From the NCBI GenBank assembly GCA_027487485.1, contig JAIYDN010000091.1, forward strand, positions 248,001-312,000: a stretch of 64,000 bases of DNA, written 5' to 3'. The notes beneath the pieces were generated by a model. The model ran no database searches and was not told the DNA's origin. It saw nothing but the letters and a program-made list of their open reading frames with translations. Positions 1 through 18,996 of the stretch are shown here, piece by piece. Source of the DNA: Planctomycetaceae bacterium (GTDB lineage: Bacteria > Planctomycetota > Planctomycetia > Pirellulales > Pirellulaceae). Positions within the stretch are counted from its first letter, which is position 1, and every line of letters starts with the position of its first letter. Position numbers and translations under genes: made by a program.

Positions 1-1
1 T

Positions 2-2353
2 GAGCCTCAAAAAATGGAAGGAAAGAAAACCGTCGATTCGCTTACCAATTTTAAGCCAATGATTATTCTCCGCTATTCAGCGACCCATAAGATTGTCCAT
101 AACAAAGTATATCGACTTGACGCACTAGATTCATACAATCGGAAGCTGGTTAAGAAAATTGCAGTGCGTGGCATATCGATTAAGGGGTTGTCTGGAACTA
201 ACGCGTACCTCTACGTTGGTTCGATTGATATTTCGCATACGAAACCGCCGACGGCCCGAGTCGAGCTTGAAATCAAGCAAGTGGGTGGTATTAAGCGAGT
301 TCATAAGAATCTTGGTAAGGGCGACAATTTGTTCGATTTGTCGGGCGGACTTGACCAATACAAAGGTTTTGTCATCACCGATATCGACGCTCGCACCAAC
401 ACTGTGAGCTTTAGCAATGGTGTGGATCTGCAAGCGGGTGATGCAACTGGCGATGTCAATGACTCCACGCTTCGCAGAATACAAATTCGTGAGGCAATTA
501 GAGCCCACTTCGAAAAGGAACAAGTCCTGTTCAGTAAGGGAATCAAAGTACTCACCTTGTTTTTTATCGACGAAGTTGCCAAATATCGAATGTACAACGA
601 GTCAGGGCAAGTACCTGGTGAGTACGCTGAAATTTTCGAAGAGGAGTATGCCAAACAGCGAGATGAAAATCTCACTATGTTTGGCGACACCTACGACAAA
701 TATCTAAAGGGGATTGAGCCGTCCCAAACCCACAACGGCTACTTTTCCATTGACAAGAAGACTAGGCGTTTGGTCGACCCTGCGTTTAAGAAAACCGGTG
801 AGTCTAAAGGGGAAACTGACGATGTCGATGCTTTCGACTTAATCCTCAAAGACAAAGAACGGCTCTTATCATTTGAAGAACCTACACGATTCATTTTCTC
901 GCACTCGGCGTTGCGAGAGGGATGGGACAACCCAAACGTCTTCGTAATATGTGCTCTCAAACACAGCGACAACACAGTATCACGTCGACAAGAAGTAGGG
1001 CGAGGGATGAGATTAGCCGTCAACCAGTTTGGTGATCGACAGGATGATCCAGCCACTGTCCATCAGGTCAACATTTTGACCGTGGTCGCCAGTGAAAGCT
1101 ACAAGGACTTCGTTTCCGCACTTCAGAAGGACATTAGCAATTCACTTTCCGAGCGTCCCAAGGTTGCCGATGAAGCTTACTTTACTGGAAAGATTCTTAG
1201 GACCGAAACCGGCGACGTTCCAGTAACGCCGCAACTCGCAAGGCTAATTTCTCGTTACTTGGTTAAGAACGATTACACGGACACATCGGATCGAATCACC
1301 AGTACTTTCCATGAGGCCAAAGAGTCCGGAACGCTAGCAGCACTTCCAACCGAATTGGCACCCCATGCGGATCATGTGTTCACATTGATCAGTAGTGTCT
1401 TTAGCGATGCTCAGCTTCCCGAAATCGACGACGAGCGAGCGGCAAAGTCGAACCCACTCAACTCAAATTTCGAGAAAAAGGAATTTCAAGCGCTTTGGCA
1501 ACGCATCAACCACAAGGCTATCTACACGGTCCATTTCGAAACGGATGAACTGATTGGGAAGTGCGTTCGAGCCCTTAACAAGGAACTGAACGTCACTCCG
1601 CTCCAGTACACCATTCAAGCCGGAGAGCAAAAGGATCAAGCCACATTCGACGAACTCCGCCAAGGCTCTGCATTCGAATTGAAGGAGACGAACACCGATT
1701 CGTACAACGATTCAGTGCAGTCGACCGTTAAGTATGACTTACTAGGCAAAATGACCGAGTCAACACAACTAACCCGAAAGACCGTCGCTCAAATTCTCGG
1801 GTCCATCGAACCAGTTGTCTTCAAGCAATTCCAGATGAACCCTGAAGACTTCATTATGAAGGCAGGTCGATTAATCAACGAGCAAAAGGCGACAGTAATC
1901 GTCGAACACCTTAGCTACGATAAGCTCGAAGACCGCCACGAAGCGGAGATCTTCACGAGGGACAAAACTAAGAAGGACTTCGGTAAAGCGACCAAAGTAG
2001 ACCGTCACATCTATGACTACGTTTTCACAGACTCCAACACAGAGCGAACGTTTGTTCGCGAGTTGGATACGAGCGCTGAAGTTGTAGTCTATGCCAAGCT
2101 CCCCAAGTCGTTCTTCATTCCAACACCAGTAGGCAACTACAACCCGGACTGGGCCATCGCGTTCGAAGAGGGCAAAGTGAAGCACATCTACTTCATAGCC
2201 GAAACCAAAGGCTCGATGTCATCAATGGAGCTCCGCAAAATCGAAGAATGCAAAATGGACTGCGCCCGCAGGTTCTTTGCAAAGATAACATCGGACCAAG
2301 TCAAGTACGACATAGTCAACAGCTACGCGAAGCTCATGGAACTGGTGAAGTAG
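2..2353 (+). CDS. Type III restriction endonuclease Res subunit, C-terminal part (5' truncated by window)
   Basis: The frame is already open at the window edge, so this is the C-terminal part of a longer protein; the first Met in view is at 14. The Res subunit of type III restriction-modification enzymes is an ATP-dependent superfamily 2 helicase/translocase that cuts DNA together with a Mod methylase. Helicase lobe 2 is visible: a SALREGWDNPNVF motif near residue 298 (counted from Met14) and a QEVGRGMRL motif near 327, the usual signature of this family. The C-terminus carries the endonuclease core, NPDW near residue 710 followed by ETKGS near 729, a PD-(D/E)XK pattern. Lobe 1 with Walker A and B must lie to the left, and the Mod gene is probably there too. 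It starts the island's defence-gene run. Confidence 0.88.
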   Translation, partial: EPQKMEGKKTVDSLTNFKPMIILRYSATHKIVHNKVYRLDALDSYNRKLVKKIAVRGISIKGLSGTNAYLYVGSIDISHTKPPTARVELEIKQVGGIKRVHKNLGKGDNLFDLSGGLDQYKGFVITDIDARTNTVSFSNGVDLQAGDATGDVNDSTLRRIQIREAIRAHFEKEQVLFSKGIKVLTLFFIDEVAKYRMYNESGQVPGEYAEIFEEEYAKQRDENLTMFGDTYDKYLKGIEPSQTHNGYFSIDKKTRRLVDPAFKKTGESKGETDDVDAFDLILKDKERLLSFEEPTRFIFSHSALREGWDNPNVFVICALKHSDNTVSRRQEVGRGMRLAVNQFGDRQDDPATVHQVNILTVVASESYKDFVSALQKDISNSLSERPKVADEAYFTGKILRTETGDVPVTPQLARLISRYLVKNDYTDTSDRITSTFHEAKESGTLAALPTELAPHADHVFTLISSVFSDAQLPEIDDERAAKSNPLNSNFEKKEFQALWQRINHKAIYTVHFETDELIGKCVRALNKELNVTPLQYTIQAGEQKDQATFDELRQGSAFELKETNTDSYNDSVQSTVKYDLLGKMTESTQLTRKTVAQILGSIEPVVFKQFQMNPEDFIMKAGRLINEQKATVIVEHLSYDKLEDRHEAEIFTRDKTKKDFGKATKVDRHIYDYVFTDSNTERTFVRELDTSAEVVVYAKLPKSFFIPTPVGNYNPDWAIAFEEGKVKHIYFIAETKGSMSSMELRKIEECKMDCARRFFAKITSDQVKYDIVNSYAKLMELVK

Positions 2354-2483
2354 ACGCGATATTTCCAGCGCACAGCAGCTTCCATTGTTCAGGATGTGTA
2401 TCCGTTGGATTGAATATTGATCGATTCGCAAACAACAGTTCAATGAACTGGTAAATACCCCCTCTAAACCAATAGTCCCGAAA

Positions 2484-5400
2484 ATGCTAAGCACAATTTT
2501 TGACATTGTAACATCTGGCTCCAAAGCCGGAGCGAACGAGTTAGATTCGCCTTATGTAGTCAAAGGCGGGAACAATTTTCTCGATCTCTTTTTGAAATCA
2601 GAACGGGTACCGAAGAGAAAAACCCACGCAATGAATCATTGCTTCGCAATGGCCGAGTACTACGCCTTGAGAAATGAACTGCCATTGAGTTCGGATTGGA
2701 TCGTTTCGGCAGCCGCTGTTTGCGATCAGGAGACGGAATTCTTGGACAGACTACATGCTCTCTGGGCAAAGCAAAGTGGGCTGGAGGGCGATAGCTGGAA
2801 TGATTTGCTGAGACGCCTTCCTGAAAAAGTAGAAAAGCGTTCCGTAGGCTTAACCATAATTCGCGCTATTTCCAAAGCACAGTTTGAGTGGTCCCAAGAG
2901 AATGCCGCGAGATTGCTAGCGTTCGCGCATTCTGTGTGCACAGACATCTTTGACCGATTGAGAATACAGCAAGCAGCGCAGCCTTTTGAGCAAGTTTTTG
3001 AATTGAAAAGACTTGATGCCAAGTTAGAAGAACTACTTGCCCCGGTTACTGCAGCGATCGAATCTTGCGATTTGCGTTCCATTTCACTTAGGAGGCATAC
3101 CGTCTCTCAGGCGTTAACAGACGGATTGGTAGTCGCTTTCGTTAGGCCGCAACTACCCACCGGCTTTCTCAAGGACAAAATGGTTGCGATTTTCAAGGCA
3201 ATTGAATCGATTATCGATGCAACAAGTAGTCAAGATTTTCTACGTAATATCACTGCTACTCAAGCCGAAGTAATTGCAGCGAAGAAACAGCTTACAGAAT
3301 TCCCGACCTGCTTCTCTTTAGGACTATTATTGCCATTCTTCGATAAAGTTTCGCAGCTCATTCAAGATGCGTACGAATCATCGGACGCAATTAAGCCAAC
3401 ATCGTTAACAATTGAAGCTTACGACCGCAAGTATCCTTTCCACGAGAAAGGAAGCGATGTTCGATTGAGGTTTATCCTGCACAACAGTGGACCGGGACCA
3501 GCAAAAGACATTGTTGTGATGTTTAATATTTTCCACGACGTGATTCCAAGTGAAAAAGTTGTTCGGATATCAGAATTGAGTGTCGGCCAACAGGCTATAG
3601 ATATTGACGTCAAACTTGGAACCGTAACCGAGGATGTTGTTTATGCAATACAAATTGATTGGAACAACATGGATTCGACATCGGGAGAAACAACGGTCGA
3701 AGGGAAACTAAGGTGCCAAAATCCAAACGTTGATTGGGATCAACTCGTTTATGCAGATCCCTACAATTCTGACGCGATCGACTGGGAATCCGACCGTCCA
3801 TTCATTGGGAGGGCTGCTGATTTGCGCACTCTTCAGCAGTCGTTCTCAACCAAAACAGTTGGCTCCTTCTATATTTACGGACAGAAGCGTGTTGGAAAAA
3901 CTTCCCTAGCGATCGAAGCTGTAAGCAGGGCTCAGGAAAATATTGCGGAGTTCAAGTATGTTTATTTGGAGGGCGGAGACTATGTACGACCATCCGGCGA
4001 GGGAACACTCAAATCACTTGGTCGGCAAATCGTAACTAGATTAAAGCGATGCAGTCGGCAAATCGAACGCCTGCCTGAGCCGAACTTTACGGATTCGATT
4101 CAAGAGCTAAACGAGTATATGGAGGAAGTTCTGCAAGTACTTCCAACATCTCGATTTGTGATTGTACTTGATGAATTCGATGAACTACCACTCGATCTTT
4201 TTAAGCGAGGGCCTCTGGGGGATAGTTTCTTTCTCACACTTCGAGCTCTCAGCGGTAAATCCCGTGTGGGACTAATTTTGATCGGTGGAGAGAAAATGAA
4301 CCCAATTATTTCTGCCCAAGGAGACCAACTCAATCGATTCAATCATCTAAGGGTGGACTACTTTCGCCGCGAAGATCAATGGCGAGATTTTGAGTGCCTC
4401 GTACGAGAACCGGTAAACAATGAAGTTGAGTTTTCAGATACAGCTATCGAAGTTATGTATAGCTGGTCCGCAGGAAACCCTTACTTCACAAACATGATCT
4501 GTCGCGAAGTCCTCAAACGATGTTGCGATCGAAGAGATTCATACGTTACGGAGAGAGAAGTTGAAGAATGTGCAAACTCAGCTTGTCGCAATGCTGGTGC
4601 AAATAGTTTTGCCCATTTTTGGGAGGATGGCGTTCTTGATACAGGTCTTTCTACGGAAGATGTATCCGTGATGCGACGACGCATACTGCTCTCTCTCGCT
4701 GCAATTCGCCGCTCTGGCTTAATTTCGACCAGCGAAAACTTCGCAAAGCAATACGACCTTAGAGCAATCCCATTAAAATCGATCGAATCAGAACTTAAGC
4801 GGTTTGTAGAACGTGGAGTCTTCACTGTCGGTAATGGTGGTGAATATCGATGCCGGGTAACTTTTTTTGAGCGGTTTTTAGAAGAAAGAAGTGCAGATTT
4901 GATCTCGACCGACTTTACCGATCAAGAAGAAAGAAGGGGCTTCGAACATCAGGAAAACGAAGCGTTTGTGAGTGCCTCCGAGATCAATAAACTTGTCGAT
5001 CATTGGGGACTGTATCGTTCTGAGAAAGTCACAGACAGTAAGGTGAGATTATGGCTTGAACAATTTGGAACAAAACAGAATCAGAGATTGATGTTCAAGC
5101 TTTTAGAGTCAATACGATTCTATTCCGAGGCGATGGTTCGGGAGAAGCTTTACATTGCCATGCAACACGTGAGGCGAAACACAGTCGAAACAAAGAAGTC
5201 TGGCGAGAAATCCAGAAGGGATATCCTAGTATCATATCTAGGAGGCGTCGCAAAAAGCGGAACACAGTACGCGAGAATGTTTTGCCAAGAGAACTCTCTG
5301 TTGAAGGATAACGCCATGAACCTGCAAGGATTGGGAGAGAGAGTCGCAAAGTCTGGAACTAATATTCAAGCAATCGTCTTTGTAGAAGACTTCATAGGGA

Positions 5401-5816
5401 CTGGTGGAACGGTAATAGAAGCAATGCGGCAGTTGAATCATGAAATCGGCGATGCTGTCCGGCAGCACGGGATAAAGTTATTTATCCTCTCTATTTGTGG
5501 CTTTGAGAGGTCTTTGGCGAAAATCAAGAATGCGGCAAAACAATGTAACTTACCAATTGAGCTGTTTTGCTGTGATCCTCTGGACGAATCTGATATGGCA
5601 TTCAGTTCCACTTCAAAAGTGTTTCCGCATGCAACAGAACGCGAACAAGCATGTGCTTTGGCGAAGGAAAAAGGCGATTTCCTTGAGCGGAAGTATCCAC
5701 TTGGACATGGTGAATGTCAGGCACTAGTTGCCTTTTTTTCCAATTGCCCTAACAACACCTTGCCGATCCTTTATAAGGAAACGGAAAGATGGATCCCATT
5801 GTTTCCACGAACCTAA
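2484..5816 (+). CDS. STAND-type ATPase with C-terminal phosphoribosyltransferase-like (PRTase-CE type) domain
   Basis: This 1110-residue protein has three visible parts. Residues about 1-300 are helical and unrecognised; about 310-410 read as a beta-sandwich (an LHNSGPGPAKDI stretch typical of CARDB/Ig-like domains). An ATPase follows, opening with FIGRAADLRTL, with Walker A GQKRVGKT at 466-473 and Walker B VIVLDEFDE at 559-567. From about residue 830 the C-terminus is phosphoribosyltransferase-like: VEDFIGTGGT at 967-976 matches the PRPP-binding loop, and the ends GHGECQALVAF and PNNTLPIL resemble the PRTase-CE family predicted as an effector in prokaryotic conflict systems. The inferred design is a one-gene immune sensor, in which the ATPase switches on the PRTase effector. 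It stands alone, 130 bp after the type III restriction gene. No signal peptide or membrane segment is seen. The PRTase reaction is unknown. Confidence 0.75.
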   Translation: MLSTIFDIVTSGSKAGANELDSPYVVKGGNNFLDLFLKSERVPKRKTHAMNHCFAMAEYYALRNELPLSSDWIVSAAAVCDQETEFLDRLHALWAKQSGLEGDSWNDLLRRLPEKVEKRSVGLTIIRAISKAQFEWSQENAARLLAFAHSVCTDIFDRLRIQQAAQPFEQVFELKRLDAKLEELLAPVTAAIESCDLRSISLRRHTVSQALTDGLVVAFVRPQLPTGFLKDKMVAIFKAIESIIDATSSQDFLRNITATQAEVIAAKKQLTEFPTCFSLGLLLPFFDKVSQLIQDAYESSDAIKPTSLTIEAYDRKYPFHEKGSDVRLRFILHNSGPGPAKDIVVMFNIFHDVIPSEKVVRISELSVGQQAIDIDVKLGTVTEDVVYAIQIDWNNMDSTSGETTVEGKLRCQNPNVDWDQLVYADPYNSDAIDWESDRPFIGRAADLRTLQQSFSTKTVGSFYIYGQKRVGKTSLAIEAVSRAQENIAEFKYVYLEGGDYVRPSGEGTLKSLGRQIVTRLKRCSRQIERLPEPNFTDSIQELNEYMEEVLQVLPTSRFVIVLDEFDELPLDLFKRGPLGDSFFLTLRALSGKSRVGLILIGGEKMNPIISAQGDQLNRFNHLRVDYFRREDQWRDFECLVREPVNNEVEFSDTAIEVMYSWSAGNPYFTNMICREVLKRCCDRRDSYVTEREVEECANSACRNAGANSFAHFWEDGVLDTGLSTEDVSVMRRRILLSLAAIRRSGLISTSENFAKQYDLRAIPLKSIESELKRFVERGVFTVGNGGEYRCRVTFFERFLEERSADLISTDFTDQEERRGFEHQENEAFVSASEINKLVDHWGLYRSEKVTDSKVRLWLEQFGTKQNQRLMFKLLESIRFYSEAMVREKLYIAMQHVRRNTVETKKSGEKSRRDILVSYLGGVAKSGTQYARMFCQENSLLKDNAMNLQGLGERVAKSGTNIQAIVFVEDFIGTGGTVIEAMRQLNHEIGDAVRQHGIKLFILSICGFERSLAKIKNAAKQCNLPIELFCCDPLDESDMAFSSTSKVFPHATEREQACALAKEKGDFLERKYPLGHGECQALVAFFSNCPNNTLPILYKETERWIPLFPRT

Positions 5817-6036
5817 GTAGAAAAATCACAAGATTTTCGGTGAAACAATGTTCCTCAGGTAGTAACGGATAATTCCTTAAATCGCACAGACCATTTGCTA
5901 GCCGGATTCCATTAGGTTAACTGCAGCTTGCAGCGAGCAATGCTGGAGTTGTAAGGAGATTGCGATCGATACGGCTGGCCATTTACGCACGGCGGACCTT
6001 AATCGCAGAGACAAACAACATTTCGCATTGGAGCTC

Positions 6037-6051
6037 TCTGGTCAGACCAGA
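6037..6051. repeat. Small perfect inverted repeat downstream of the HNH gene
   Basis: Six bases (TCTGGT) are repeated inverted around a CAG loop in the 257-bp gap between two convergent genes. There is no T-run on either side, so an intrinsic terminator is not supported. The rest of the gap 5817-6073 shows nothing recognisable. Confidence 0.3.
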
Positions 6052-6073
6052 ACACTGACGAGACTGATCTATC

Positions 6074-6772
6074 CTAGTTGCCTTCAAAGCCCATTTCCAG
6101 CCATCGATACTTTGCGTCGCTCCAGTGTCCAAGGGCTTCCTGCGGAAGGTTCGAGATGATTTTGTGAAGCATAGTCCAAACCCTTCTTTGATACTCAGGA
6201 TGAATCCCGAGTGGGTATAGATAGACCCAAGAGTCTCCAGTGATGGAGTGAAGAGCTTCTTCGAAAGTAGCCACAGGAGCTTTCATCCAAGATCGCCATG
6301 ACTCCTGGTCATTCTCGTCGAGGTAGATTCCGCCCCGGCCGACTTGGTATTCCCATTTTCCAAATGTGTCTCTGATTCTATAAATACCTGCACTGCCTCC
6401 TTCGGCCCCTAGTTCAAATACCAGTTCGGGCTTGGCCACGGAATTGGTCGCTATGATTGTTTGTGAACTTTCATCGAGACCTTGAGGACTGCGCCCTTGC
6501 GATTCTGATGCGATAGCCCTCGATCGCTTTGGCCCTGAACCACTCTTGGCAATGTCCCGCATCGCAACAATCACTTCAACGGAAATCAGCTTCTTTCCCA
6601 GCATCTTCTTGCAGTTCGGACACAGAATCACTAGATTCGATATGTCATTGTTTTTCCGGTCGCCATCAATGTGGGCGACATCGAGAATGGCAAGTATTCC
6701 GAATCCGCAGTGAGTGCAAATTGGATCGTAATTCGCAAACGCCAGTTTTCGATAATTGACGCGCGATGTCAT
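6074..6772 (-). CDS. HNH endonuclease-domain protein with unknown C-terminal domain
   Basis: This 232-residue protein starts with a compact HNH/treble-clef nuclease domain. Cys19-x2-Cys22 and Cys51-x2-Cys54 are zinc ligands, and His34 in AHIDGDRKNN sits where the metal/catalytic histidine of HNH enzymes is found; the Asn of DISNLVILC is also conserved. A charged linker (about 70-115) leads to a domain of about 110 residues containing GIYRIRD, WVYLYPLG and a tryptophan-rich end, which I do not recognise. It is transcribed away from the large helicase gene beginning at 7029, with 256 bp between them, so shared regulation is possible. The nuclease call is solid; a defence role is inferred from the surroundings. 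Confidence 0.78.
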   Translation of the reverse strand: MTSRVNYRKLAFANYDPICTHCGFGILAILDVAHIDGDRKNNDISNLVILCPNCKKMLGKKLISVEVIVAMRDIAKSGSGPKRSRAIASESQGRSPQGLDESSQTIIATNSVAKPELVFELGAEGGSAGIYRIRDTFGKWEYQVGRGGIYLDENDQESWRSWMKAPVATFEEALHSITGDSWVYLYPLGIHPEYQRRVWTMLHKIISNLPQEALGHWSDAKYRWLEMGFEGN

Positions 6773-6842
6773 TTAGGGGCTTTCAAAATGCGTTCCTAGG
6801 TTCACTCTGATATGGAACGATCGAGTTAGTTCTTGATTTGGA

Positions 6843-6863
6843 TCAGTGTAGCCGATGCACTGA
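6843..6863. promoter_or_regulatory. Inverted repeat in the divergent HNH/helicase intergenic region
   Basis: TCAGTG and CACTGA form a 6-bp inverted repeat with a 9-bp spacer between two divergent genes, which is where an operator for both would sit. No clear sigma-70 promoter boxes can be assigned by eye. Such short repeats also arise by chance. Confidence 0.22.
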
Positions 6864-7028
6864 ACACTTGCTACTTTTTCACACAACCAGCCTGTGTTTC
6901 TGCCAAGCCACTCGGCGGCGAAATCTTATTCTTAATCCACTTTGGCTTGCTATCCATTGAGACCGTTCGAGATTACCATACACCTACTTGAAATCGACTC
7001 CTATTAGCCCGATAACTCCCGTTGCATT

Positions 7029-10000
7029 ATGCCAAATGACGATGTCGTTTTGATCAACGAACTTCAGCGATTTCGTGGGAAACTGTTGGATCTAAGTCTT
7101 CGGAACCCGTTGCTAAATTACCGCAAAAGTTCACGGAAAACATTGCAGATAGTTGATGAACTTCCTGATGAGGTATACCGTCGCTTAGTAGAGCTCACAA
7201 AGCCCATGAAGCTCGTCGCCGACTTAGCCTTGGATGCAAAAGAAAAGCGGCAAGCCTCGCTGAATGTCGCTGATGAACTGTCCGGGAAACTAGAGCAACT
7301 TGAGCTGCTTCCGAAATCTAGCTACGTAGTCACATTGCCAAAATCCGTAGATGGCAAAAACGAAAAGCGTCATTCAGATGACTGCTTGCAAACTAATCTT
7401 AGTTCGCAAAAGCTTCAATCCCTGATGAGAACGATTGCTCGCGACGCCAAGGCAACCATCGACGAAACAGGCATCAATTATCTCCATCTTGCGATTGGCT
7501 TCTTAAAATGGAAGGAGACCTCAATCGGCGATGCTGAGGGTAGGCTTGCCCCGCTAATCTTGATCCCTATCAATGTCGAGACGAAGCCGACATTCTCCGG
7601 TACCAACGAATACTATCTCAAGTGGAACGAAGACGAAATCCAGTCTAATGCAAGTCTTCGTAGGAAGTTGGAAAGCGATTTTGGCCTGTCATTGCCTGAA
7701 ATGAACGAGGAGGAAAGTCCCGAGGTGTACATGCGGCGTATCGAAACAGTCGCTGCGCAACACGGTTGGATCATAGAGCGTCAAATGCTACTTGGGTTCT
7801 TTTCGTTTCATAAACTTTCGATGTACGCTGATATCGCACCTGAGAATTGGGAAGCGTCCGGTGCTCTCGGTGATAATTCGCTTGCTTCACGCCTTATTGT
7901 GGGTGGAAGCGCGGGCGGCGGCGATGGAATCTACGCTACCGACTACGACGTGGATGAACACCCCATCGCTCGAACGCTCGATCTACCTCTTGATGCTGAT
8001 AGCTCTCAGCAATCTGCAATTTCAGATATCGCGGACGGAAAGAGTTTGGTTATTGAAGGCCCCCCAGGTACTGGAAAATCCCAGACGATCGCAAATGCCA
8101 TTGCAAACGCAATGCACCAAGGCAAAACTGTACTTTTTGTTGCGGAAAAGCATGCTGCTTTGGAGGTGGTGCTAAAACGTTTATCCAATGCAGGGCTTGG
8201 CGATTTTTGTCTCGATTTGCATGGTCAAGCCGTTGCCCCAAAGAAGGTAATGGAGTCGCTCGCTAAACGACTTAGCCGATCGATAAGCCATCAACCAGGT
8301 GAAGTAGACCCTAAGAAACGACTTGCTGCTTGCAAGCAAAATTTAAGCAACTATCTGAAAGATACTGCCAAGATCGTTGGTCCGTATCGCGAACCACTTT
8401 ACGATCTTTTCTGGAGGGTTGTTCGCATTCGTCAAAGTGGAGGTCAAGTCCTTCGTGACATTGAATGCGATATAGATCTGGACCTCGATGGTTTTGAACA
8501 GGCAACAGCATCACTCAAGTCGTTCGAGAAATCCTTGAAGGATTTTCAAGATCCAAAAGATAGTGCCTGGTGGGGCTTCTTCCCAACCGAACTCGCACCC
8601 AACGAATCAAACCGAATTCTTGACGTACTGAGGAAGCTAGGAGAATTCGCTTTGCGTTTAGAAGTGAATGTTCAACAAACGAGCGAATTATTGGGATGTT
8701 CAAACGGAACGGCATGCGATTTTCTATCCAAACTCAGTGTCACCGACTTAATTCGCTTGGGATCTACAAAACTTAACTTTGGAGTGATCGGCCTTGACCA
8801 GATAGTTAACCCCAAATCCCAACAGTTCGGGATTGATTTGCAGCGAGCGCACACGGATTTTACTGAAACCAAAACCAGCCTTGCAAAAACGCTTCTTGTC
8901 GACGTATCTGATGCCACAGCCTCATTGAGCTTGATGGATGCGGATGCATGGAAGCGATTGGAAGATTTTCCAAAGTCCCTTCAGGTCTGGCAACTTCAAG
9001 AAGTTCGAATCTGGGCGGAAACAACTCTTGGTATTGCGTTCAAGCTCGTGGAGTGGGCGAAGTCCATGAACGTGCTGGGTTTCGTCGATGTTGATCGCTT
9101 TGACGATTTCGAACGCGCTATTCAACAAATCCATCTTGTACAACATCCGATAAATGTCGATCAAACTAGTTTGCCACAAAGTTTGCACTATGATTCCGCG
9201 AAAACTATCTTGGGAAGTGCAAAAGCAAAATGGGATACACTTACCAAACGCAAACAGGAAATCGCAACTGTATTCCATCTTGCCTCTGTTCCCGACTCCG
9301 ACAACCTAGTCGCAATCCTCAAAAAGTTTCGTGCAAGCAGCAATGGGTTCTTTAGGGCTTTTAAGTCAGACTATCGTCAATCGCTAGCAGAGATTAAGCA
9401 ATTTGCTGACTTCCCCAAGAAGTACAGCTCTAAGCAGATCTTGTCCGCACTGGAGTCACTAGAACGGTTCGAAAGGGACAAGAAGGAATTTGAGAGTGAC
9501 GAGTCACTGAAAAGATTGCTTGTAAACTTCTTTAAAGGGTTGGACTCCGACTGGGACAAGATAAAGACCCTGATGGCATGGGTACAAACCGCAAGGAAGC
9601 TAGGCCTTGATCCCATTCGTATCAATACACTACTTCCACAGCGGGATGAAATCTGCCTGAAGTTCTCAGTGAAGGAAATGAACTTGGAACTTGCGAACAT
9701 CAAAGCGCAATTGAGCTCAGAACATTCGAAATCGGCAGGACTCGACAGCTTGGAGGGTGGAGCTTGCCGCATCAACAATCTTGTATCACGACTCATGCAG
9801 TTAATATCACACTTGCGTCAAATCGATTCAACTTCGAGAGTACTTTCGGATGGCAGAAACGCGACGCTAGCAGATATCAAATTTGTTGCAGAGCAAATTG
9901 ATCTACATCGCGCCAGCTTGAAATCAATCGAGAAGGCGGCAATATCAACGGATGCGGATGAACACGCCATCCTCAACGCGATTCAGTCCAAGCAAGTCAA

Positions 10001-12002
10001 CTTCAAAGAATTAGTTGCTTGGGTAACTGACTTCAAGAAACTGAATTTGGGAATCCATGCCTTCGACAATCTAACGAAGTTTGGACCGAATATTTTTTGT
10101 GAAACACTAGCGACGACATGCATTGAAACTCAAAATATTGTATCCGAGTGGAACACACATCGGGAGCTTATTGTTGGCAAGGCTGAGGTTAACAGGAACT
10201 GGCTAAGCCCAATGGAGAATGGTGTGCTTCGTAGCGATATTACATCAATGGTGCAAAAACTGGAGGCCGAAAAGGAACGCCTTCCTGCGTGGATATCTGT
10301 TTGCCGTAGCTATTCCAGATGCCGACGATTGGGGGTGAGCGCTTTTGCTATGGCAGGTATAGAAAACCAATCGCCCGGAATTGGTTTTGCGGAAATGTAC
10401 CAAATGACATTCTTACAGAAAATTGCAGATCGCGAATTACACTCTAGCCAAATCGGTTTCGGTTTCACAGCTGCGGAAATGGAAGACACCCGACGAAGCT
10501 TCCAGAGTATCGACAGAGCCTGCATGAGTGCGGTTCCCGATGAAATCGTTCGCAAAGTAACTCAGCGGAGACCGCCAGAAGGAAATGGGCGAGGGCGTGT
10601 AGTCGAGTTCACGGAATTAGCGCTCATCAAGCACGAAATCGCGAAAAAGACTCGTCATTGCCGTATCCGAGACTTAATGTCGCGGGCAGGAACGGCTGTT
10701 CAGGCAATCAAGCCTTGCTTTTTGATGAGTCCGCTATCGTTGTCTCGCTATATCCCTAGCGATCAGGTTAAGTTTGATTTGGTGATTATGGATGAAGCGT
10801 CGCAAATTAAACCCGAAGATGCAATTGGGGCAATTCTTCGTGCCAAGCAATTGGTCGTCGTTGGTGATCCAAAACAACTTCCACCGACTAGTTTTTTCGA
10901 TCGGACTGACGAAGATCTTGAGGATGATGAGGCAACTCAATTTGACAATGCGGAGTCTGTTCTTGAAGTGGCGATGAAATCATTCCAGCCTTATCGCAGA
11001 CTTCGATGGCATTATCGTAGCCAACACGAAAGTCTTATCCACTTCTCGAATCATCGGTTCTACGACAGTGACCTAATCGTGTTTCCATCCGCCAAAGGTA
11101 TTTCGAGCGGTTATGGAGTTAAGCACCATTATGTTTCAGATGCTACCTGCCTCAAAGGTGCGAATGTCCAGGAAGCAGAAGCGGTAGTTAGGAGAGTGGT
11201 CGAACATGCACGGACCACGCCAACCGAGTCACTGGGTGTAGCTGCGTTCAATCAACGACAAGCTGAGCTGATACAAGATCTTCTCGACAAAGCATGTGAT
11301 CAGGATCGAAGGGTTGCGGAAGCTGTCGACGCACTTCGTAATTTGGACGACGAGTTGTTCGTCAAGAACCTGGAAAGTATCCAGGGAGATGAACGGGATG
11401 TGATGTTCATTTCCTATACCTATGGACCGGACCCGACCACTGGTCGAGTATTTCAAAGGTTTGGCCCAATCAACTCTGAAATGGGATGGCGACGACTGAA
11501 CGTTATGGTTACTCGTTCGCGAAAACGAATGGAGATCTTTTCATCGCTCAAGCCTAGCGATATTCATACCGGGCCTGACAAGAGTCGTGGAATCAACTCG
11601 TATCGGGAGTTTCTGGAATATGCAGCAACAGGCCGGATGATCGAGGCAGGAACCGAATCGGGACGTGAACCTGGTTCGCCTTTTGAGGAATCGGTAGCCC
11701 AGGTCGTGTCGAGCTTTGGATTGGAGCCGGTATTTCAAATCGGGGTAGCAGGGTATTTCATCGATATCGGAGTAAGGAAGCCCGGAGAACAGGGGAATTT
11801 CATTCTAGGTATCGAGTGCGATGGAGCCACCTACCACTCTTCTCGCTCCGCTCGAGACCGAGATCGCCTACGCGAAGAGGTAATCCTACAAAGAGGGTGG
11901 ACGCTCCATCGAATTTGGTCGACAGAGTGGTTTCTCAATCAACGCCAGGAAGAAGTAAGATTACAACGTATCCTTGAGGCGATATTGAAACAACCCAGCT
12001 AA
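7029..12002 (+). CDS. DUF4011-type superfamily 1 helicase with C-terminal Vsr/DUF559-like nuclease
   Basis: A 1657-residue protein. The N-terminus has the DUF4011 signature (KLLDLSLRNPLLNYR, about residues 16-30). The superfamily 1 helicase core is split by a long, partly coiled insertion: Walker A GPPGTGKS at 344-351, then DEAS (motif II) at 1255-1258, GDPKQLPP (motif III) at 1279-1286, QGDERD near 1452 and VTRSRKRMEIF near 1493. The last 120 residues hold a nuclease of the Vsr/MTES_1575 class, with IECDGATYH from 1595 and RGWTLHRIWSTEWF near 1630. This DUF4011-helicase-endonuclease order is known from predicted antiviral genes (the hhe type). The inferred job is sensing and cutting foreign DNA in the cytoplasm. 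All motifs appear intact. It is likely a single-gene unit, possibly co-regulated with the divergent HNH gene. Confidence 0.85.
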   Translation: MPNDDVVLINELQRFRGKLLDLSLRNPLLNYRKSSRKTLQIVDELPDEVYRRLVELTKPMKLVADLALDAKEKRQASLNVADELSGKLEQLELLPKSSYVVTLPKSVDGKNEKRHSDDCLQTNLSSQKLQSLMRTIARDAKATIDETGINYLHLAIGFLKWKETSIGDAEGRLAPLILIPINVETKPTFSGTNEYYLKWNEDEIQSNASLRRKLESDFGLSLPEMNEEESPEVYMRRIETVAAQHGWIIERQMLLGFFSFHKLSMYADIAPENWEASGALGDNSLASRLIVGGSAGGGDGIYATDYDVDEHPIARTLDLPLDADSSQQSAISDIADGKSLVIEGPPGTGKSQTIANAIANAMHQGKTVLFVAEKHAALEVVLKRLSNAGLGDFCLDLHGQAVAPKKVMESLAKRLSRSISHQPGEVDPKKRLAACKQNLSNYLKDTAKIVGPYREPLYDLFWRVVRIRQSGGQVLRDIECDIDLDLDGFEQATASLKSFEKSLKDFQDPKDSAWWGFFPTELAPNESNRILDVLRKLGEFALRLEVNVQQTSELLGCSNGTACDFLSKLSVTDLIRLGSTKLNFGVIGLDQIVNPKSQQFGIDLQRAHTDFTETKTSLAKTLLVDVSDATASLSLMDADAWKRLEDFPKSLQVWQLQEVRIWAETTLGIAFKLVEWAKSMNVLGFVDVDRFDDFERAIQQIHLVQHPINVDQTSLPQSLHYDSAKTILGSAKAKWDTLTKRKQEIATVFHLASVPDSDNLVAILKKFRASSNGFFRAFKSDYRQSLAEIKQFADFPKKYSSKQILSALESLERFERDKKEFESDESLKRLLVNFFKGLDSDWDKIKTLMAWVQTARKLGLDPIRINTLLPQRDEICLKFSVKEMNLELANIKAQLSSEHSKSAGLDSLEGGACRINNLVSRLMQLISHLRQIDSTSRVLSDGRNATLADIKFVAEQIDLHRASLKSIEKAAISTDADEHAILNAIQSKQVNFKELVAWVTDFKKLNLGIHAFDNLTKFGPNIFCETLATTCIETQNIVSEWNTHRELIVGKAEVNRNWLSPMENGVLRSDITSMVQKLEAEKERLPAWISVCRSYSRCRRLGVSAFAMAGIENQSPGIGFAEMYQMTFLQKIADRELHSSQIGFGFTAAEMEDTRRSFQSIDRACMSAVPDEIVRKVTQRRPPEGNGRGRVVEFTELALIKHEIAKKTRHCRIRDLMSRAGTAVQAIKPCFLMSPLSLSRYIPSDQVKFDLVIMDEASQIKPEDAIGAILRAKQLVVVGDPKQLPPTSFFDRTDEDLEDDEATQFDNAESVLEVAMKSFQPYRRLRWHYRSQHESLIHFSNHRFYDSDLIVFPSAKGISSGYGVKHHYVSDATCLKGANVQEAEAVVRRVVEHARTTPTESLGVAAFNQRQAELIQDLLDKACDQDRRVAEAVDALRNLDDELFVKNLESIQGDERDVMFISYTYGPDPTTGRVFQRFGPINSEMGWRRLNVMVTRSRKRMEIFSSLKPSDIHTGPDKSRGINSYREFLEYAATGRMIEAGTESGREPGSPFEESVAQVVSSFGLEPVFQIGVAGYFIDIGVRKPGEQGNFILGIECDGATYHSSRSARDRDRLREEVILQRGWTLHRIWSTEWFLNQRQEEVRLQRILEAILKQPS

Positions 12003-12279
12003 CCATCCTGTGAATTTGTACGGATCAGGATCGATCCGAATGGACAACGCTTTGGCGTCGAGATGAACATGCAACGTTGAAGGTGCCCAAGAATTCGACG
12101 ATCTGGCTTACGTTCTGAGAGGAGGATTGTTGTGTTCACATGTCACCGTGGTTAAACTCAAGCAGATATTTCAGAGAAACATGGATGGTAGTTTCGATCC
12201 AGCGTTTTATCTACTTGTAGTCTTGTGCTCGCGTTCACTCATAGCAGACATTGTCCTAACGCAGGAGTTCGTCTTTGTA

Positions 12280-12975
12280 ATGGCCACCTTTGCTTGTCTC
12301 CAATGTAATCATCAACAGTCTGTTCCCGACGGGTACATCGGGAAACGTACGAAATGCCCCAAATGTGGCGAATCAGGCACGGTGAAGGTTGGGACTGAGT
12401 TGGTTACCGCTGAAGTGGTTATGCCAGTATCGCAAGAAGGTACAGTAGTCTTACGTCAACCGGGTGGCTCAATTCGCACGCCACTCTCCAGGACGATTAT
12501 CCTGAATAAGGAATCTAGCCTCGAGCGAGAATTCATTACAGTAATCGACAAATCGCTTCCCGCTGGTTTGACATCGTGTGTTGGCATTATCACCGTATAT
12601 GAACCAGAAACTGACTATTCAACTGGGCAGTATCAATATTCAGCGAGCTATGCGGTAAAGGCTCTGGCGGAAATCCGCGCATTTGAAGTGAGATTTCTCA
12701 TATTCAATCTTTGGGGGAAGCATGTTCACACATTGACTGCGACCGAAATCGCAGATTTATCCGCTGGGGAAATGCGGCAATGCGACGGCAAGTGGGACCT
12801 GTTCGACGAAAATGAGGCTTGCGAGCACTACGCGTCAATCGCGTATCTTGCCAAAATCAGAACGGCGTCCGGTCAGGTGCTGGAGGCTGATATTGAGCCT
12901 ATTATAGCAGAAGCGAAGCATTTTTCATCCAAATTCACCGATGCCGATTTAGAGCCAACGCCGCGCCCACGCTGA
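12280..12975 (+). CDS. Zinc-ribbon protein of unknown function
   Basis: The chosen ATG has a GGAG 13 bases upstream and begins directly with a zinc ribbon: Cys6-x2-Cys9 and Cys26-x2-Cys29 (CLQC ... CPKC), a type common at the start of planctomycete proteins. The frame remains open upstream to a TTG at 12127, but that extension looks unlike protein. Residues about 60-231 are a soluble domain with alternating strands (FEVRFLIFNLWG, ITVYEPE); I do not recognise it. No membrane segments are seen. It sits alone between the helicase gene and a second small zinc-binding gene. Function unknown. Confidence 0.6.
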   Translation: MATFACLQCNHQQSVPDGYIGKRTKCPKCGESGTVKVGTELVTAEVVMPVSQEGTVVLRQPGGSIRTPLSRTIILNKESSLEREFITVIDKSLPAGLTSCVGIITVYEPETDYSTGQYQYSASYAVKALAEIRAFEVRFLIFNLWGKHVHTLTATEIADLSAGEMRQCDGKWDLFDENEACEHYASIAYLAKIRTASGQVLEADIEPIIAEAKHFSSKFTDADLEPTPRPR

Positions 12976-13119
12976 AGTAAGGCTGGACAAACTGCATCGT
13001 AAAGGACCTGCTAAAGTCTCTGAAAGCCATGAAGGATGAGTCTCGGGTTTAGTCCAGCTGAAACGAAAAGTTATTAGACATGATACTTTGCATCACCACA
13101 TTCAAACTGGAGTTCGTCA

Positions 13120-13587
13120 ATGAACTACATTCCACCGCCAAAATTCCAAACTGATGACTGCGGCGAAATTAAGTGCTGTATTTGTGGCGACAAATGCGTA
13201 CTCTACTGGTTGAACGACGACGTATGGGAAAAGTGCCATTCCGATGCATCTTGTTGTGGTGGTCATCTTTGCCTACTGCATGCTGAAAGCATTCTTGGAC
13301 GGAAAATTACGCTTGCCGATCTTGCTGTGGAAAAGTACTTGCTAACTGCGAGAAACGAGAAGAACGGTCAACGTAGGGTTGTTCATTGCCTTGTTGATAC
13401 CATGATCGGGGCTGCAAATCACTCGAACGTACAAATTCCAACGGGATGGTGCTCAATGTGGAGTGAGTATGTAGGACTTGGTAGAACGCTAAGTTCGCAG
13501 ACCGAGAATGCCCCTTTCTTGGTTCGGCAACTTATCGCCGAAACAACGAGACATTTCCCAAACTTTGCCAACCCATATGCGCGCTGA
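13120..13587 (+). CDS. Small cysteine-rich (treble-clef-like) phage-type protein
   Basis: A 155-residue protein with a cysteine/histidine cluster in its first 55 residues: CCICG, then a WLNDDVWEKCH segment, then CCGGHLCLLHAE. The pattern CxxC ... DDxW ... LC ... LGRxxT resembles a zinc-finger family found in phages and mobile elements; I know of no function for it. The ATG follows GGAG with a 7-base spacer, so the start is well supported. The C-terminal half has no recognised motif. It probably belongs to the mobile-element cargo. Confidence 0.6.
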   Translation: MNYIPPPKFQTDDCGEIKCCICGDKCVLYWLNDDVWEKCHSDASCCGGHLCLLHAESILGRKITLADLAVEKYLLTARNEKNGQRRVVHCLVDTMIGAANHSNVQIPTGWCSMWSEYVGLGRTLSSQTENAPFLVRQLIAETTRHFPNFANPYAR

Positions 13588-13961
13588 CCAGTTCAGCACT
13601 AGATCGGCGATAAAGGATTTCGGATACCATGTACTGGGTTTGATTTCGCGTTGCCACTCTAGCGACCTACGCAAGCTAGTCCTCGGTTAACTGCCCAGTC
13701 AATGTTTTCTTGCTTAAGAGGTTAGCCAGATTTTAATCCGATATTCGAGAAGCCCAAGCTGCGGTTCTTGATTCGCTAAGGATTATCCCGACCGCGCTTT
13801 CTTGGCGGCTTCGTTGATCGGCGGTGTTTGGTTTGCTCGAAGGATTTTGTTACTTGCACTTCCATCACCATAGTTAAACCCGCTGACGGCAATTGGCATC
13901 TGAAACATCCATTACAATTCCCAACTTTTGATTGAAGGACATCCCACCGATATTGGAACAT
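13588..13961. other. Stretch without a convincing gene
   Basis: Nothing with protein-like composition or a supported start is seen on either strand. The stretch leads into the decayed phosphatase gene and may hold further unrecognisable remnants. Confidence 0.4.
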
Positions 13962-14287
13962 ATGCATGACATAGATGGATAGATCGCAATTGGGGATGTT
14001 AATGGACATACCAAGGCACGCTCCAAGTTGATTGATTTGTTCGAGCCAACATCGTCCGACACGATCGTGATGCTCGGTGACTGCATCAATCGTGGTCCGG
14101 ATAGCCGTGGAGCTCCTGAGCAGCTGATCGAACAGTGGAAAGCTGGTAACCTAGTTTGCTTTTTTGAGAATCATGAAGAAACCATTTTAGAAAGCTCGTC
14201 GGAGTCAGGGGCCCACTGACAGCATTCGATTTGACGAACGGAGAGACATTCATCTGTTCTCAAAGCGCCGCGAAACTCTCGACTTAG
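13962..14287 (+). pseudogene. Decayed PPP-family serine/threonine phosphatase (nonsense, internal deletion, frameshift)
   Basis: From the ATG at 13962 the seventh codon is TAG (13980-13982). Behind it the frame reads IAIGDVNGH, then IVMLGDCINRG, then FFENHEE, which follow the three PPP phosphatase motifs GDVHGN, GDxxxRG and GNHE of the intact copy at 15441. The frame stops at 14217-14219. A C-terminal phosphatase tail (GPLTAFDLTNGETF) then continues in another frame to a TAG at 14285-14287. About 130 central residues are missing. GDVHG is already changed to GDVNG and GNHE to ENHE, so the copy is old and inactive. Confidence 0.72.
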
Positions 14288-14338
14288 CTGGGTAATAAAG
14301 CAGTAGTTCGCTTTAGCACCCTTACTGGAGATTTTCAA

Positions 14339-15316
14339 ATGGCTCATGAACTGGCTACTACAAATGGCAAAACTTCGATGGCATATTTTGGTGATACGCC
14401 GTGGCATCGACTTGGAACGAAACTGAACGAACCCGCAACGGCAGCTGAGGCAATCATCGCGGCTGGCTTGAATTACCAAGCGGATTTGAAATCAATTCAA
14501 ACGCTCGATGGCAAAGCGGTAACACAACGCAAGGCCGTCGTTCGATCCGACACCGGCGACGTACTTGGTGTTGTGGGAAACTCCTACGTGCCTGTCCAAA
14601 ATCATCAAGCGTTCAGCTTCTTGGACGGCGTCGCTGGTGATGGTTGCTTGCGGTATCATACTGCGGGGGCACTTGGGAACGGGGAGCGAGTATGGATGCT
14701 CGCGAAACTCCCATCTGAAATTCGGGTCAAGGATTCCGATGACGTGACCGAGAAGTTTTTGCTTCTGAGCAACTCTCATGATGGAAGTTCGGCATTGCGA
14801 GTTTTCTTCACTCCTATCCGCGTCGTTTGTGCCAACACTCTGGGGGTTGCCGAACGTAAGGGGCGAGGCCAAGGTGTTTCAATAACGCACAAGGGCGACT
14901 TGAATGCGAAGGTGCACGAGGCTCGAACCATTTTGGGTATCGCTGACCGATTCTTTACAAATCTTTCGGGACATATGGATCACCTGGCCAGCGTCTACCC
15001 AACTCGGCAGCAATTGGAGGTTTATTTCGAGTCCCTTTATCCAGACACCGAAGGGAAACCAAACACTCGTGCGAAAAACATTCGACGCGAACTTTTTCAG
15101 TTGTTCGAACATGGACGAGGGCAAAACATTCAGTCTACGCGTCTTACGATGTGGTCGGCATTCAACGCAGTTACCGAATATGTCGATCACCATCGCTCGA
15201 CGCGAGGCCGGAACGAATTCGATCGAGAAAGTCGAAGACTTGAATCGGCCTGGTTTGGAAGCGGTGCACACGTCAAAGCACGAGCTTGGGAGCTAGCGTT
15301 GAATCTCGCAGTATAA
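14339..15316 (+). CDS. DUF932 / TIGR03299 phage- and plasmid-type protein
   Basis: A 325-residue soluble protein matching the DUF932 (phage/plasmid-like TIGR03299) family. Diagnostic segments are TPWHRLGTKL near residue 20, then YQADLKSI, VLGVVGNSYVPVQNHQAF and LSNSHDGSSALRVFFTPIRVVCANTL. The family is widespread on plasmids, phages and integrative elements, often next to recombination genes; its biochemical role is not established. The ATG is preceded by GGAG with an 8-base spacer. It lies between a decayed and an intact copy of the same phosphatase gene, which suggests repeated local rearrangement. The family assignment is strong. Confidence 0.85.
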   Translation: MAHELATTNGKTSMAYFGDTPWHRLGTKLNEPATAAEAIIAAGLNYQADLKSIQTLDGKAVTQRKAVVRSDTGDVLGVVGNSYVPVQNHQAFSFLDGVAGDGCLRYHTAGALGNGERVWMLAKLPSEIRVKDSDDVTEKFLLLSNSHDGSSALRVFFTPIRVVCANTLGVAERKGRGQGVSITHKGDLNAKVHEARTILGIADRFFTNLSGHMDHLASVYPTRQQLEVYFESLYPDTEGKPNTRAKNIRRELFQLFEHGRGQNIQSTRLTMWSAFNAVTEYVDHHRSTRGRNEFDRESRRLESAWFGSGAHVKARAWELALNLAV

Positions 15317-15440
15317 TGGCTGATTGACCCACGTATGTCACACAGCACGGATAACGTTGTAAGAGCACTTTCCAACACAAGGCCAAGTGCAACACAAACA
15401 TGTCTTCCGCGTGGACGTATTCGGATCTGAAACACTCGTA

Positions 15441-16082
15441 ATGGCAAACCCGAAAATTGAATCGAGAATATTCGCGATCGGTGATGTTCATGGGAATTCG
15501 GCGGCATTAGAGCGGCTGCTTGCGGAAATGCGCCTAAGGCCCCACGACACGCTTGTTATGCTGGGCGATGTCATCAATCGCGGGAATGACACACGAGGAG
15601 TTATCGAACATTTGATAGCCCTTGCCGAATTCTGCAATCTAGTTTGTGTTCTCGGCAATCACGAGGAGGTCTTACTCGAAGTCTTGAGACGTCCTGAAGC
15701 CATCGAGCAATTCCTGAGCATGGGAGGTGACTCAACATTAGCATCGTATGGCGATCTTTCATTGCCCCAACAACTTCCTAGTAAGCACATTGAATTCATA
15801 CGCGGGTTTGTACCGTATTTCGAGACGCCTGAATTCATCTTCGTGCATGCAAATTACTGCTGGTACATGCCGATGGACCAACAGCCAGGGTCCCTACTCC
15901 GCTGGACCAGCATCGAAGACGAACCACCCAAGGCCCACACATCGGGCAAGCTAGTGATCTGCGGGCATTCACCTGGACTAGTACGAGATCTGGGGCACTG
16001 CATCTGCATTGACACTGGCTGCGGCTTCGGCGGGAACTTGACTTGTTTGGACCTGTTCATCCGCAAATTGCTTCACTCGTAG
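15441..16082 (+). CDS. PPP-family metallophosphatase (calcineurin-like serine/threonine protein phosphatase)
   Basis: 213 residues, about the size of bacterial PPP enzymes. The metal-binding motifs appear in order: GDVHGN at 14-19, GDVINRG at 42-48, GNHEE at 72-76, then HANY and CGHSP, and an IDTGCGFGG end. PPP enzymes remove phosphate from Ser/Thr proteins or cleave dinucleoside polyphosphates (ApaH type) using two metals. One oddity is that the usual GDxVDRG aspartate is Asn46; the decayed copy also has Asn here, so this is a lineage feature. The ATG at 15441 is preferred over an in-frame GTG at 15387, which would add an unlikely leader. It is convergent with the HEPN-type gene. A role in phosphorylation-linked defence is speculative. 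Confidence 0.8.
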   Translation: MANPKIESRIFAIGDVHGNSAALERLLAEMRLRPHDTLVMLGDVINRGNDTRGVIEHLIALAEFCNLVCVLGNHEEVLLEVLRRPEAIEQFLSMGGDSTLASYGDLSLPQQLPSKHIEFIRGFVPYFETPEFIFVHANYCWYMPMDQQPGSLLRWTSIEDEPPKAHTSGKLVICGHSPGLVRDLGHCICIDTGCGFGGNLTCLDLFIRKLLHS

Positions 16083-16119
16083 ACTGACGGCGGGTGCCCA
16101 AATTCTCACATGTTCGCCT

Positions 16120-17556: not shown

Positions 17557-17852
17557 TTTGCGGAGTCTTTTCCTACTAAAGACGAACGTATAGCGATTTA
17601 TCCCGAGAGAAGCGAAGCGGAGCCGTGGGAAAGATCGAGCGTTGGGCTACGCCGCTTCGCCGTGGCACCTTTGCGACCTCTACCGAGTTCACACGCTACT
17701 TCTTGGCCTCAGTGTAGCAGCTCCGTTACCCTTTTGGCAACGTCCTGCCTTTTGAGACTTAGTTCCAACATTCTTCTTGTTCGCTTCGCCGCGATTGTTA
17801 CGCCCTGCTGACGACCAAGTTGTACGAAGCGATCGGACTGGCCTGGGATGGT

Positions 17853-17951: not shown

Positions 17952-17978
17952 ATCGGCAGCTGTTGCCGTTCATGGATT

Positions 17979-18293: not shown

Positions 18294-18416
18294 CGAGATA
18301 CTTCCCTTCGTGTTGAAATCAATTCTAGGGCAACAATAACGGTACGACTTGCCACCGTCACGATCATGTCCTTTATCTGGGTACTGATTCTAGCACCTAC
18401 TCAAAGGAACACAAAA

Positions 18417-18983: not shown

Positions 18984-18996
18984 AGGACATCCAAAA

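Follow-up and report, generated by a model that had tools for sequence, protein, structure and literature searches.

The gene at positions 2484–5816 on the plus strand of a 64,000-nucleotide stretch of DNA from a Planctomycetaceae bacterium (contig JAIYDN010000091.1; hereafter the window) raises the question of what a single protein may do for its host when it joins a STAND-type ATPase to a phosphoribosyltransferase (PRTase)-like domain of the family PRTase-CE. The gene starts with ATG and encodes 1110 residues, and its assignment draws on the list of open reading frames, Pfam, homologues and an AlphaFold2 model. The product is very probably a defence protein in which a sensor-like part, a switch and an effector follow one another along one chain. 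This reading is based on the domains, the fold prediction, the conservation, the defence setting of the locus itself and the homology to a protein that NCBI names as anti-phage. The C-terminal PRTase-CE domain is the predicted effector, an assignment made with good confidence.

The protein consists of four parts, all encoded on the plus strand. The N-terminal helical region, a putative sensor (residues 1–305, positions 2484–3398), is followed by a β-rich region (residues 306–412, 3399–3719). The AlphaFold2 model of the full protein (mean pLDDT 92.0, pTM 0.62) has helices until about residue 299 and then 8 strands across residues 308–411. The original prediction gave the order as helical N-terminus, Ig/CARDB-like domain, ATPase and PRTase-like C-terminus. 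The helical, ATPase and PRTase-like parts of this order stand, but the Ig/CARDB-like label was not confirmed: no Pfam profile matched residues 306–412, and the region is defined here by its modelled strands. The AAA+/STAND ATPase domain (residues 430–690, 3771–4553) matches ATPase_2 at residues 440–667 and AAA_22 at 459–606, both above the curated Pfam cut-offs. It contains the Walker A motif GQKRVGKTS (residues 466–474, 3879–3905) and the Walker B motif VIVLDEFDE with D563 and E564 (residues 559–567, 4158–4184). A helical/winged-helix region (residues 690–815, 4551–4928), which lies within the fold matches described below, comes after the ATPase.

The chain ends with the PRTase-CE domain (residues 854–1109, 5043–5810), to which the whole of PF24390 aligns (model positions 1–253 of 253, 176.1 bits against a cut-off of 27, E 1.6e-51); the profile search that had been proposed as a check on the domain thus returned a full-length match. 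KSG (residues 924–926, 5253–5261) is a candidate pyrophosphate loop on the grounds of its conservation. The phosphoribosyl pyrophosphate (PRPP)-loop motif VEDFIGTGGT (residues 967–976, 5382–5411) places the acidic pair E968 and D969 ahead of T973 and G974, and the family hallmark CPNNTLPILY...WIPLFPR forms the C-terminal end (residues 1088–1109, 5745–5810). The sequence carries GQKRVGKT at 466–473, VIVLDEFDE at 559–567 and VEDFIGTGGT at 967–976, exactly where the original prediction had placed them. It is the only PRTase-CE match in the host genome.

The predicted structure also bears out the PRTase fold that had been expected of the C-terminus. Its best fold matches are type I PRTases, with the free-base salvage enzymes UPRT, HGXPRT and OPRT in the top rows, and the absence of other families from these rows is no evidence against those families. 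Foldseek alone gives low TM-scores, about 0.2 by query length and root mean squared deviations of 6.6–14.3 Å for the four best rows. ORC2 and archaeal ATPases are also found among the fold matches of the protein, the matched range of the model extending to residues 800–815. Within AAA+ the ATPase may belong to the STAND or to the ORC/Cdc6 branch. Searching the PDB with a full-length profile returned AAA+ rows, a single NB-ARC protein and, at E 0.32, a single orotate PRTase, and a profile of the C-terminal part put an orotate PRTase in the top row (E 0.0027).

Homologues are numerous. Of 7995 candidates that were scored, 243 reach E ≤ 1e-3; PF24390 is present in all of the 120 that were listed, whose identities go down to about 30% across about 90% of the length. 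The number of homologues, together with the invariant motif residues, means that the reading frame is not a chance one. R469, V470, G471, K472, T473 and S474 of the Walker A motif never vary in 105 aligned sequences, nor do E564, D969 and G974, and at least 90% conservation is seen for D563, K924, S925, G926, P1089, N1090, P1094, W1103, F1107 and R1109. The acid at position 968, which is mostly D in the alignment and E in the 1110-residue protein, is conserved to the same level. A PRPP-loop pattern of the [DE]D..[TS]G type occurs in 40 of 40 STAND-type rows, and tails of the PN[NT] and W.P..R types occur in all 40 as well as in 6 of 6 PRTases that are linked to NADAR proteins (see below). Median identity to 46 relatives, taken from genomes and viral contigs with a few near-duplicates included, is 12.5% for residues 1–120 and 16% for residues 120–310, the N-terminal alignment being the least sure, and 22% for the β-rich region; the ATPase (35%), the PRTase (30%) and the winged-helix part (26%) are higher. 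Variability at the N-terminus, set against conservation of the ATPase and the PRTase, is what one would expect if the three serve as sensor, switch and effector. An additional Pfam domain is present in some relatives, namely PF08238 in P0070, PF13643 in P0066 and PF03682 in P0053.

The related loci number 65 (L032–L096), 63 from GTDB genomes and 2 from viral contigs, in which 22 stretches matched the pattern and 2 encoded a relative. ATPase and PRTase lie on a single frame of more than 700 residues in 46 of the 65. The PRTase is on a separate, shorter frame in 8 (L034, L055, L066, L076, L079, L082, L084 and L085), and on no frame in 11 (L059, L071, L072 and L087–L094); these split or PRTase-less loci may stem from frameshifts, decay or contig ends, or may be genuine two-gene forms. 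The locus titles include Symbiobacteriaceae, Spartobacteria, Anaerolineae, cyanobacteria, Chitinophagaceae, Bryobacterales, Gemmatimonadetes, Armatimonadetes, Thermoleophilia, Pseudomonas and Rhizobiales, so STAND–PRTase genes occur in several phyla. There was no match in 50,697 phage records, and 7 plasmid records matched, none of them covering more than 80% of the query. Two groups of loci without a PRTase have features of their own. L087–L092, from Caldilineaceae and other Chloroflexi, encode proteins of 1017–1094 residues with a related ATPase, no PRTase match and an N-terminal part that is RelA/SpoT-like by eye. The 702-residue frame at L093:2439–4547 passes from just beyond the Walker A region directly into a PNNTLPIFW-type tail and, lacking most of the ATPase and PRTase, is a deletion or an assembly fault.

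The STAND–PRTase gene sits amid known defence genes: type III restriction-modification (R-M), CBASS, capH and capP, and an Hhe-like helicase. The in-window part of a type III restriction enzyme, Res (14–2353, plus strand; PADLOC REase_III), belongs to a longest frame of 1010 residues that includes the left flank, and its stop codon lies 130 bases ahead of the STAND gene start on the same strand. On the other side there is an HNH endonuclease-like gene (6074–6772, minus strand), with weak HNH matches below the Pfam cut-offs, and then a 1657-residue helicase-nuclease of the DUF4011/MTES_1575 and Hhe/PDC-S37 types (7029–12002, plus strand; PADLOC, Pfam), which scores 1215 bits with PDC-S37 and E 2.2e-252 with Hhe in PADLOC. 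By PADLOC, the left flank (L002, C3:233001–252999) encodes a CBASS E2 protein, a CD-NTase cyclase, a phospholipase effector, then capH and capP, and after capP an HKD+Snf2 helicase, an unmatched 223-residue protein, the type III methyltransferase and the type III restriction enzyme. Within it, at L002:2996–13516, the CBASS genes diverge from the capH–capP, helicase and methyltransferase genes, forming a dense defence island to the left of the window. Promoter-like sites number 3 where 5.2 are expected and terminator-like sites 7 where 4.1 are expected, counts that carry no weight in the interpretation below.

The original prediction had expected enrichment in defence islands to recur across the family. 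The locus itself agrees, and the relatives point in the same direction at a strength that, counted per protein, is no more than suggestive. From 184 eligible neighbours (150–1200 residues, two on each side; 51 of 57 loci, 50 represented) 136 were drawn at random, and the control consisted of 127 proteins out of 155 encoded in 10-kb stretches, 20 in all, that were picked at random on long contigs from 16 of the genomes concerned. At 1e-10, 304 PADLOC models matched among the neighbours and 9 among the control proteins, whose 10 protein–model matches in total mean at most 10 of 127 proteins. The 25 models listed belong to Old/AriA, GajA, type II methyltransferases, DruM and DrmMII, and none of them matched more than 3 neighbours. 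PADLOC models are redundant, one sampled neighbour (type I specificity) alone giving 68 matches, and 10 of the 136 neighbours were therefore sampled at random and counted per protein: three had a match (type I specificity, SspF and SoFic) and seven had none, which against the control gives a one-sided Fisher p of 0.055. A phmmer search with 13 defence proteins matched 1 of 136 neighbours, not counting the queries, and none of the 127 control proteins, too weak a result to decide. Among the 25 of 133 neighbour Pfam families listed, for which there is no control, are DDE_Tnp_1_4 (4 of 136), Phage_integrase (3) and Resolvase (2). The STAND–PRTase gene has no fixed operon partner, as no neighbour cluster occurs in more than 4 of 57 loci (380 neighbours), the largest, in 4, being HsdM-like by eye. 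It looks like a free-standing cargo of variable, partly defence-related regions.

Other settings of the effector domain were surveyed with PF24390 at its curated cut-off in the phylum of the window (392 genomes) and in that of Pseudomonas trivialis G398, the source of L042 (398 genomes). Matches were found in 12 and 18 genomes respectively, 31 in total: 9 adjoin a retron-like reverse transcriptase (RT, recognized by a Y-x-D-D motif), 6 an ATPase gene, 4 a NADAR gene and 4 an ORC-CDC6-like gene, 2 are STAND fusions, both of them in the genomes at the centre of the surveys, 1 is a NACHT fusion, 4 are in other contexts and 1 was not read. A HAD-like gene, so called from reading of its sequence, is also present in 4 of the 6 ATPase contexts, with PRTase-CE between the two (L012, L013, L126 and L132); for L130 and L131 the ATPase only was detected. 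A three-gene HAD-like/PRTase-CE/ATPase system is possible. PRTase-CE lies directly ahead of an ORC-CDC6-like ATPase in L005, L006 and L009 (PF24389) and in L121 (by similarity to L009). These pairs, with PRTases of 294–306 residues, are the two-gene counterpart of the fused 1110-residue gene. In the NACHT protein at L007:1384–3735 PRTase-CE is N-terminal, the classical STAND order and the opposite of that found here. Its occurrence on either end of STAND-type proteins fits an effector module controlled by others, and PRTase-CE fits a swappable effector across retron, NADAR, ORC-CDC6, NACHT and STAND settings.

PRTase-CE is not new to phage defence, being already present in type III-A retrons, ORC-CDC6 pairs and DS-32. 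The best PADLOC defence match of the 1110-residue protein is to the retron effector family PRTase_III-A (E 4.8e-41). This match, and the fact that a homologous domain forms one half of DS-32, strengthen the earlier suggestion that the PRTase is the effector. That it transfers or releases a ribosyl-phosphate group, as was also suggested, is a hypothesis. In a type III-A retron, which combines PRTase, winged helix and RT, control lies with RT-DNA, and here a STAND ATPase is in its place. No RT was found for Res and nine right-hand proteins (Pfam) or nine left-hand proteins (PADLOC), and there is no Rfam match in positions 1–20000 of the window; the protein was accordingly rejected as a retron III effector. 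PRTase/WH genes are described as typical effector genes of III-A1 retrons (PMC12548924). In the DprA–PRTase system, which protects against T7 and lambda, the PRTase is likewise the proposed effector, whereas the proposed sensor is a DprA protein, and the mode of action of PRTases in retrons is called unknown (PMC9122126). DprA is not named in the Pfam results of the right-hand neighbours, for which no DprA profile was run. PRTase domains of phage and plasmid proteins have also been discussed as nucleotide makers or sensors (PMC5512222).

The 1110-residue protein shares with Avs and other STAND NTPases the logic of a sensor, a STAND switch and an effector within one protein. In Avs the effector is N-terminal and the sensor C-terminal, whereas here the order is reversed, with the effector last (854–1109) and the sensor first. 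No Avs model matched at E 0.01 in PADLOC, and the protein was not assigned to Avs on account of the reversed order. Neither PADLOC 2.0.0 nor NCBIfam 20.0 gave a match to a separate system for a STAND protein of this kind, encoded by a single gene and ending in its effector, and the term 'PRTase-CE' does not occur in the open-licence PMC literature searched. The names PRTase-CE and retron III probably come from Burroughs and Aravind in 2020 and Mestre in 2020, where the STAND fusion may already appear. What is new here is the one-gene variant with its effector last, the reverse of Avs, together with a lead on the chemistry.

This lead comes from the pairing of PRTase-CE with NADAR. A profile (A6) built from six NADAR-linked PRTases was used to scan genomes and viral contigs and found 3 of 369 Gammaproteobacteria, 2 of 385 Alphaproteobacteria and 32 viral-contig loci. 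With L003, L004, L117, L118 and three records from the plasmid collection, the NADAR-type loci number 44, two of which (L166 and L186) are cut by a contig end. A NADAR frame is next on the same strand in all 44 (L003, L004, L117, L118 and L147–L186). In 41 of them the two frames overlap or are no more than 15 bases apart, and in the others the gap is 42, 89 or 256 bases; taking the longest frame inflates the overlaps, and annotated gaps are 1–5 bases (L147–L149) and 2 bases (L187). Without the six loci that built the profile, NADAR follows in 38 of 38, which form 23 clusters at 90% identity. A lambdoid prophage of E. coli has the pair (L187:4941–6574) flanked by replication protein P and ninE-region genes, and the PRTase and NADAR of this pair both exceed the NCBIfam cut-offs of DS32_1 and DS32_2. 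On the riboflavin-intermediate N-glycosidase model this NADAR scores 71.0 against a cut-off of 73.7, and a Klebsiella NADAR lies above it at 81.0. A NADAR gene is found in 62 of 5426 E. coli genomes, with about 66% DNA identity to the Klebsiella gene (22% query cover, for the rows listed); L187 is the one of these 62 neighbourhoods that was read, and there the PRTase is upstream.

The PRTase–NADAR pair is already known as DS-32, an identity taken from the NCBIfam names because 'DS-32' is not in the main text of PMC13092281; there the DS-numbered systems are those of DefensePredictor, PRTase appears in the legend to Fig. 4 and NADAR is mentioned once. A chemical reading of the pair was not found in the open-licence PMC literature searched. 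The PRTase domain of the 1110-residue protein and that of the DS32_1 type are homologous, aligning in hhalign over the whole domain with 98% probability (E 2.9e-13, 18% identity), both above the PF24390 cut-off and with the same C-terminal hallmark. DS-32 differs in consisting of two small genes, with a NADAR partner and no ATPase. The 1110-residue protein was rejected as a DS-32 member, as its match to DS32_1 ('phosphoribosyltransferase-like anti-phage protein') is weak (26.2 bits against a cut-off of 250) and no NADAR gene is found in the window or L002.

The N-glycosidic bond to ribose-5-phosphate that a PRTase makes is of the kind that NADARs break, and the two are most simply read together as an enzyme and its antidote acting on the same bond. 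A tentative reading, short of probable, is that bases receive an N-ribosyl adduct from PRTase-CE effectors. A precedent is found in the toxin–antitoxin system DarT1–NADAR, where a NADAR stands beside the base-modifying ADP-ribosyltransferase DarT1 (PMC11543638, PMC11125620). NADAR adjoins a base-modifying enzyme there, as is proposed for the DS-32-type pairs; DarT1 is, however, an ADP-ribosyltransferase and not a PRTase, and the 1110-residue gene is without NADAR. For the protein studied here, the variable helical N-terminus and β-rich part would probably sense an infection product. Sensing would release the ATPase for nucleotide exchange and assembly, as its Walker motifs and fold suggest, and assembly may bring together or uncover the C-terminal PRTase-CE domains. 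The active domain, judging from its predicted fold and PRPP loop, would consume PRPP or a related ribosyl diphosphate and put ribosyl-phosphate on a ring or amino nitrogen of a base, in the pool of free bases and nucleotides or in nucleic acid, the acceptor being a guess from the NADAR partner of the DS-32 relatives. Growth and phage production would then stop. The gene is probably a one-protein phage-defence system of STAND logic working in this way. In its widest form the proposal is possible but doubtful: PRTase-CE domains would be widespread toxins of defence systems that, with PRPP as the donor, attach ribosyl-phosphate to a nucleobase through an N-glycosidic bond, whether the base is free or part of DNA or RNA; the NADAR of DS-32 would remove this adduct, and the 1110-residue protein would be such a toxin with an infection-sensing STAND switch in place of an antidote enzyme.

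Several observations weigh against this proposal. NADAR is found in 0 of 65 STAND-type loci and nowhere in the window, so that the chemical clue reaches the 1110-residue protein by homology only, from a subfamily of 18% identity. The NADAR-type PRPP loop is DDxxF[ST]G in 6 of 6, unlike the STAND type, and acceptor or donor may differ accordingly. Of 40 STAND-type rows, 3 did not show the KSG-like pattern. The target of the NADAR partners could be something other than this adduct, or they could work by binding alone, and the host genome has a strong NADAR gene at another site (G000:C107:3019–3495, L188, E 1e-53), which also counts against carrying the clue over. To these is added the enrichment of defence genes around relatives, which is suggestive only. 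The III-A retrons give no help: Retron-Bpu1 gave no defence against any of the phages tried, and transformation failed for Retron-Ppe1 (PMC12548924).

The main rival to base N-ribosylation leaves the bases of DNA and RNA unmodified. PRTase-CE would act as a metabolite sink by draining PRPP or by pyrophosphorolysis of nucleotides, so that nucleotide and NAD synthesis collapse. The type I fold with its PRPP loop and the free-base salvage enzymes in the top fold rows agree with this, and several UPRT rows end at model residues 420–421 (chain 208–209), near which we take the UPRT base site to lie; the conserved tail would then be close to that site. Depletion of nucleotides or NAD is moreover a common outcome of defence. 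A sink needs no dedicated N-glycosidase partner, yet NADAR adjoins in 44 of 44 DS-32-type loci, and we regard this explanation, too, as possible but doubtful. Alternatively the donor may be a derivative of ADP-ribose (ADPR), such as ADPR-pyrophosphate (ADPR-PP) or NAD+, with PRTase-CE an ADP-ribosyl transferase in a PRTase fold. The NADAR pocket recognizes ADP-ribose (PMC11543638), and phage enzymes with the annotations PRPP synthetase and NAPRT are similar to some for which use of ADPR-PP has been reported (PMC11559045). In PRTase-CE, however, the acidic pair of the PRPP loop and its TG are retained, and the Pfam and NCBIfam searches of the 1110-residue protein returned no NAD+-using transferase family, which makes such a donor unlikely.

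Two further explanations were considered. The PRTase domain might be a regulator that binds nucleotides or single-stranded DNA, as PyrR or ComFC do, while the ATPase or the N-terminus does the harm. This is improbable, given that the active-site residues are invariant, that the N-terminus is the variable part, and that PRTase-CE is the constant piece across its retron, NADAR, ORC-CDC6, NACHT and STAND settings. The gene might instead be an accessory of the upstream type III R-M operon, as a guard or specificity factor. Its position 130 bases after Res on the same strand would allow this, and no sigma-70-like site was found between the two genes in a search that did not cover other promoter types. 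The neighbours of the relatives are diverse and include no fixed partner, so the link to the adjoining R-M genes was not kept as the main explanation and is improbable.

PRTase effectors recur in retrons, DS-32, DprA–PRTase, ORC-CDC6 pairs and STAND proteins, and their action is unexplained in the open-licence PMC papers found. The one-gene STAND form should be easy to clone and to probe by point mutants, and the strict PRTase–NADAR pairing provides a direct way to test the chemistry. If base ribosyl-phosphorylation is correct, DS-32 would be the phosphoribosyl counterpart of DarT1–NADAR, and an N-ribosyl-phosphate base adduct, if found, would to our knowledge be a new base modification in immunity.

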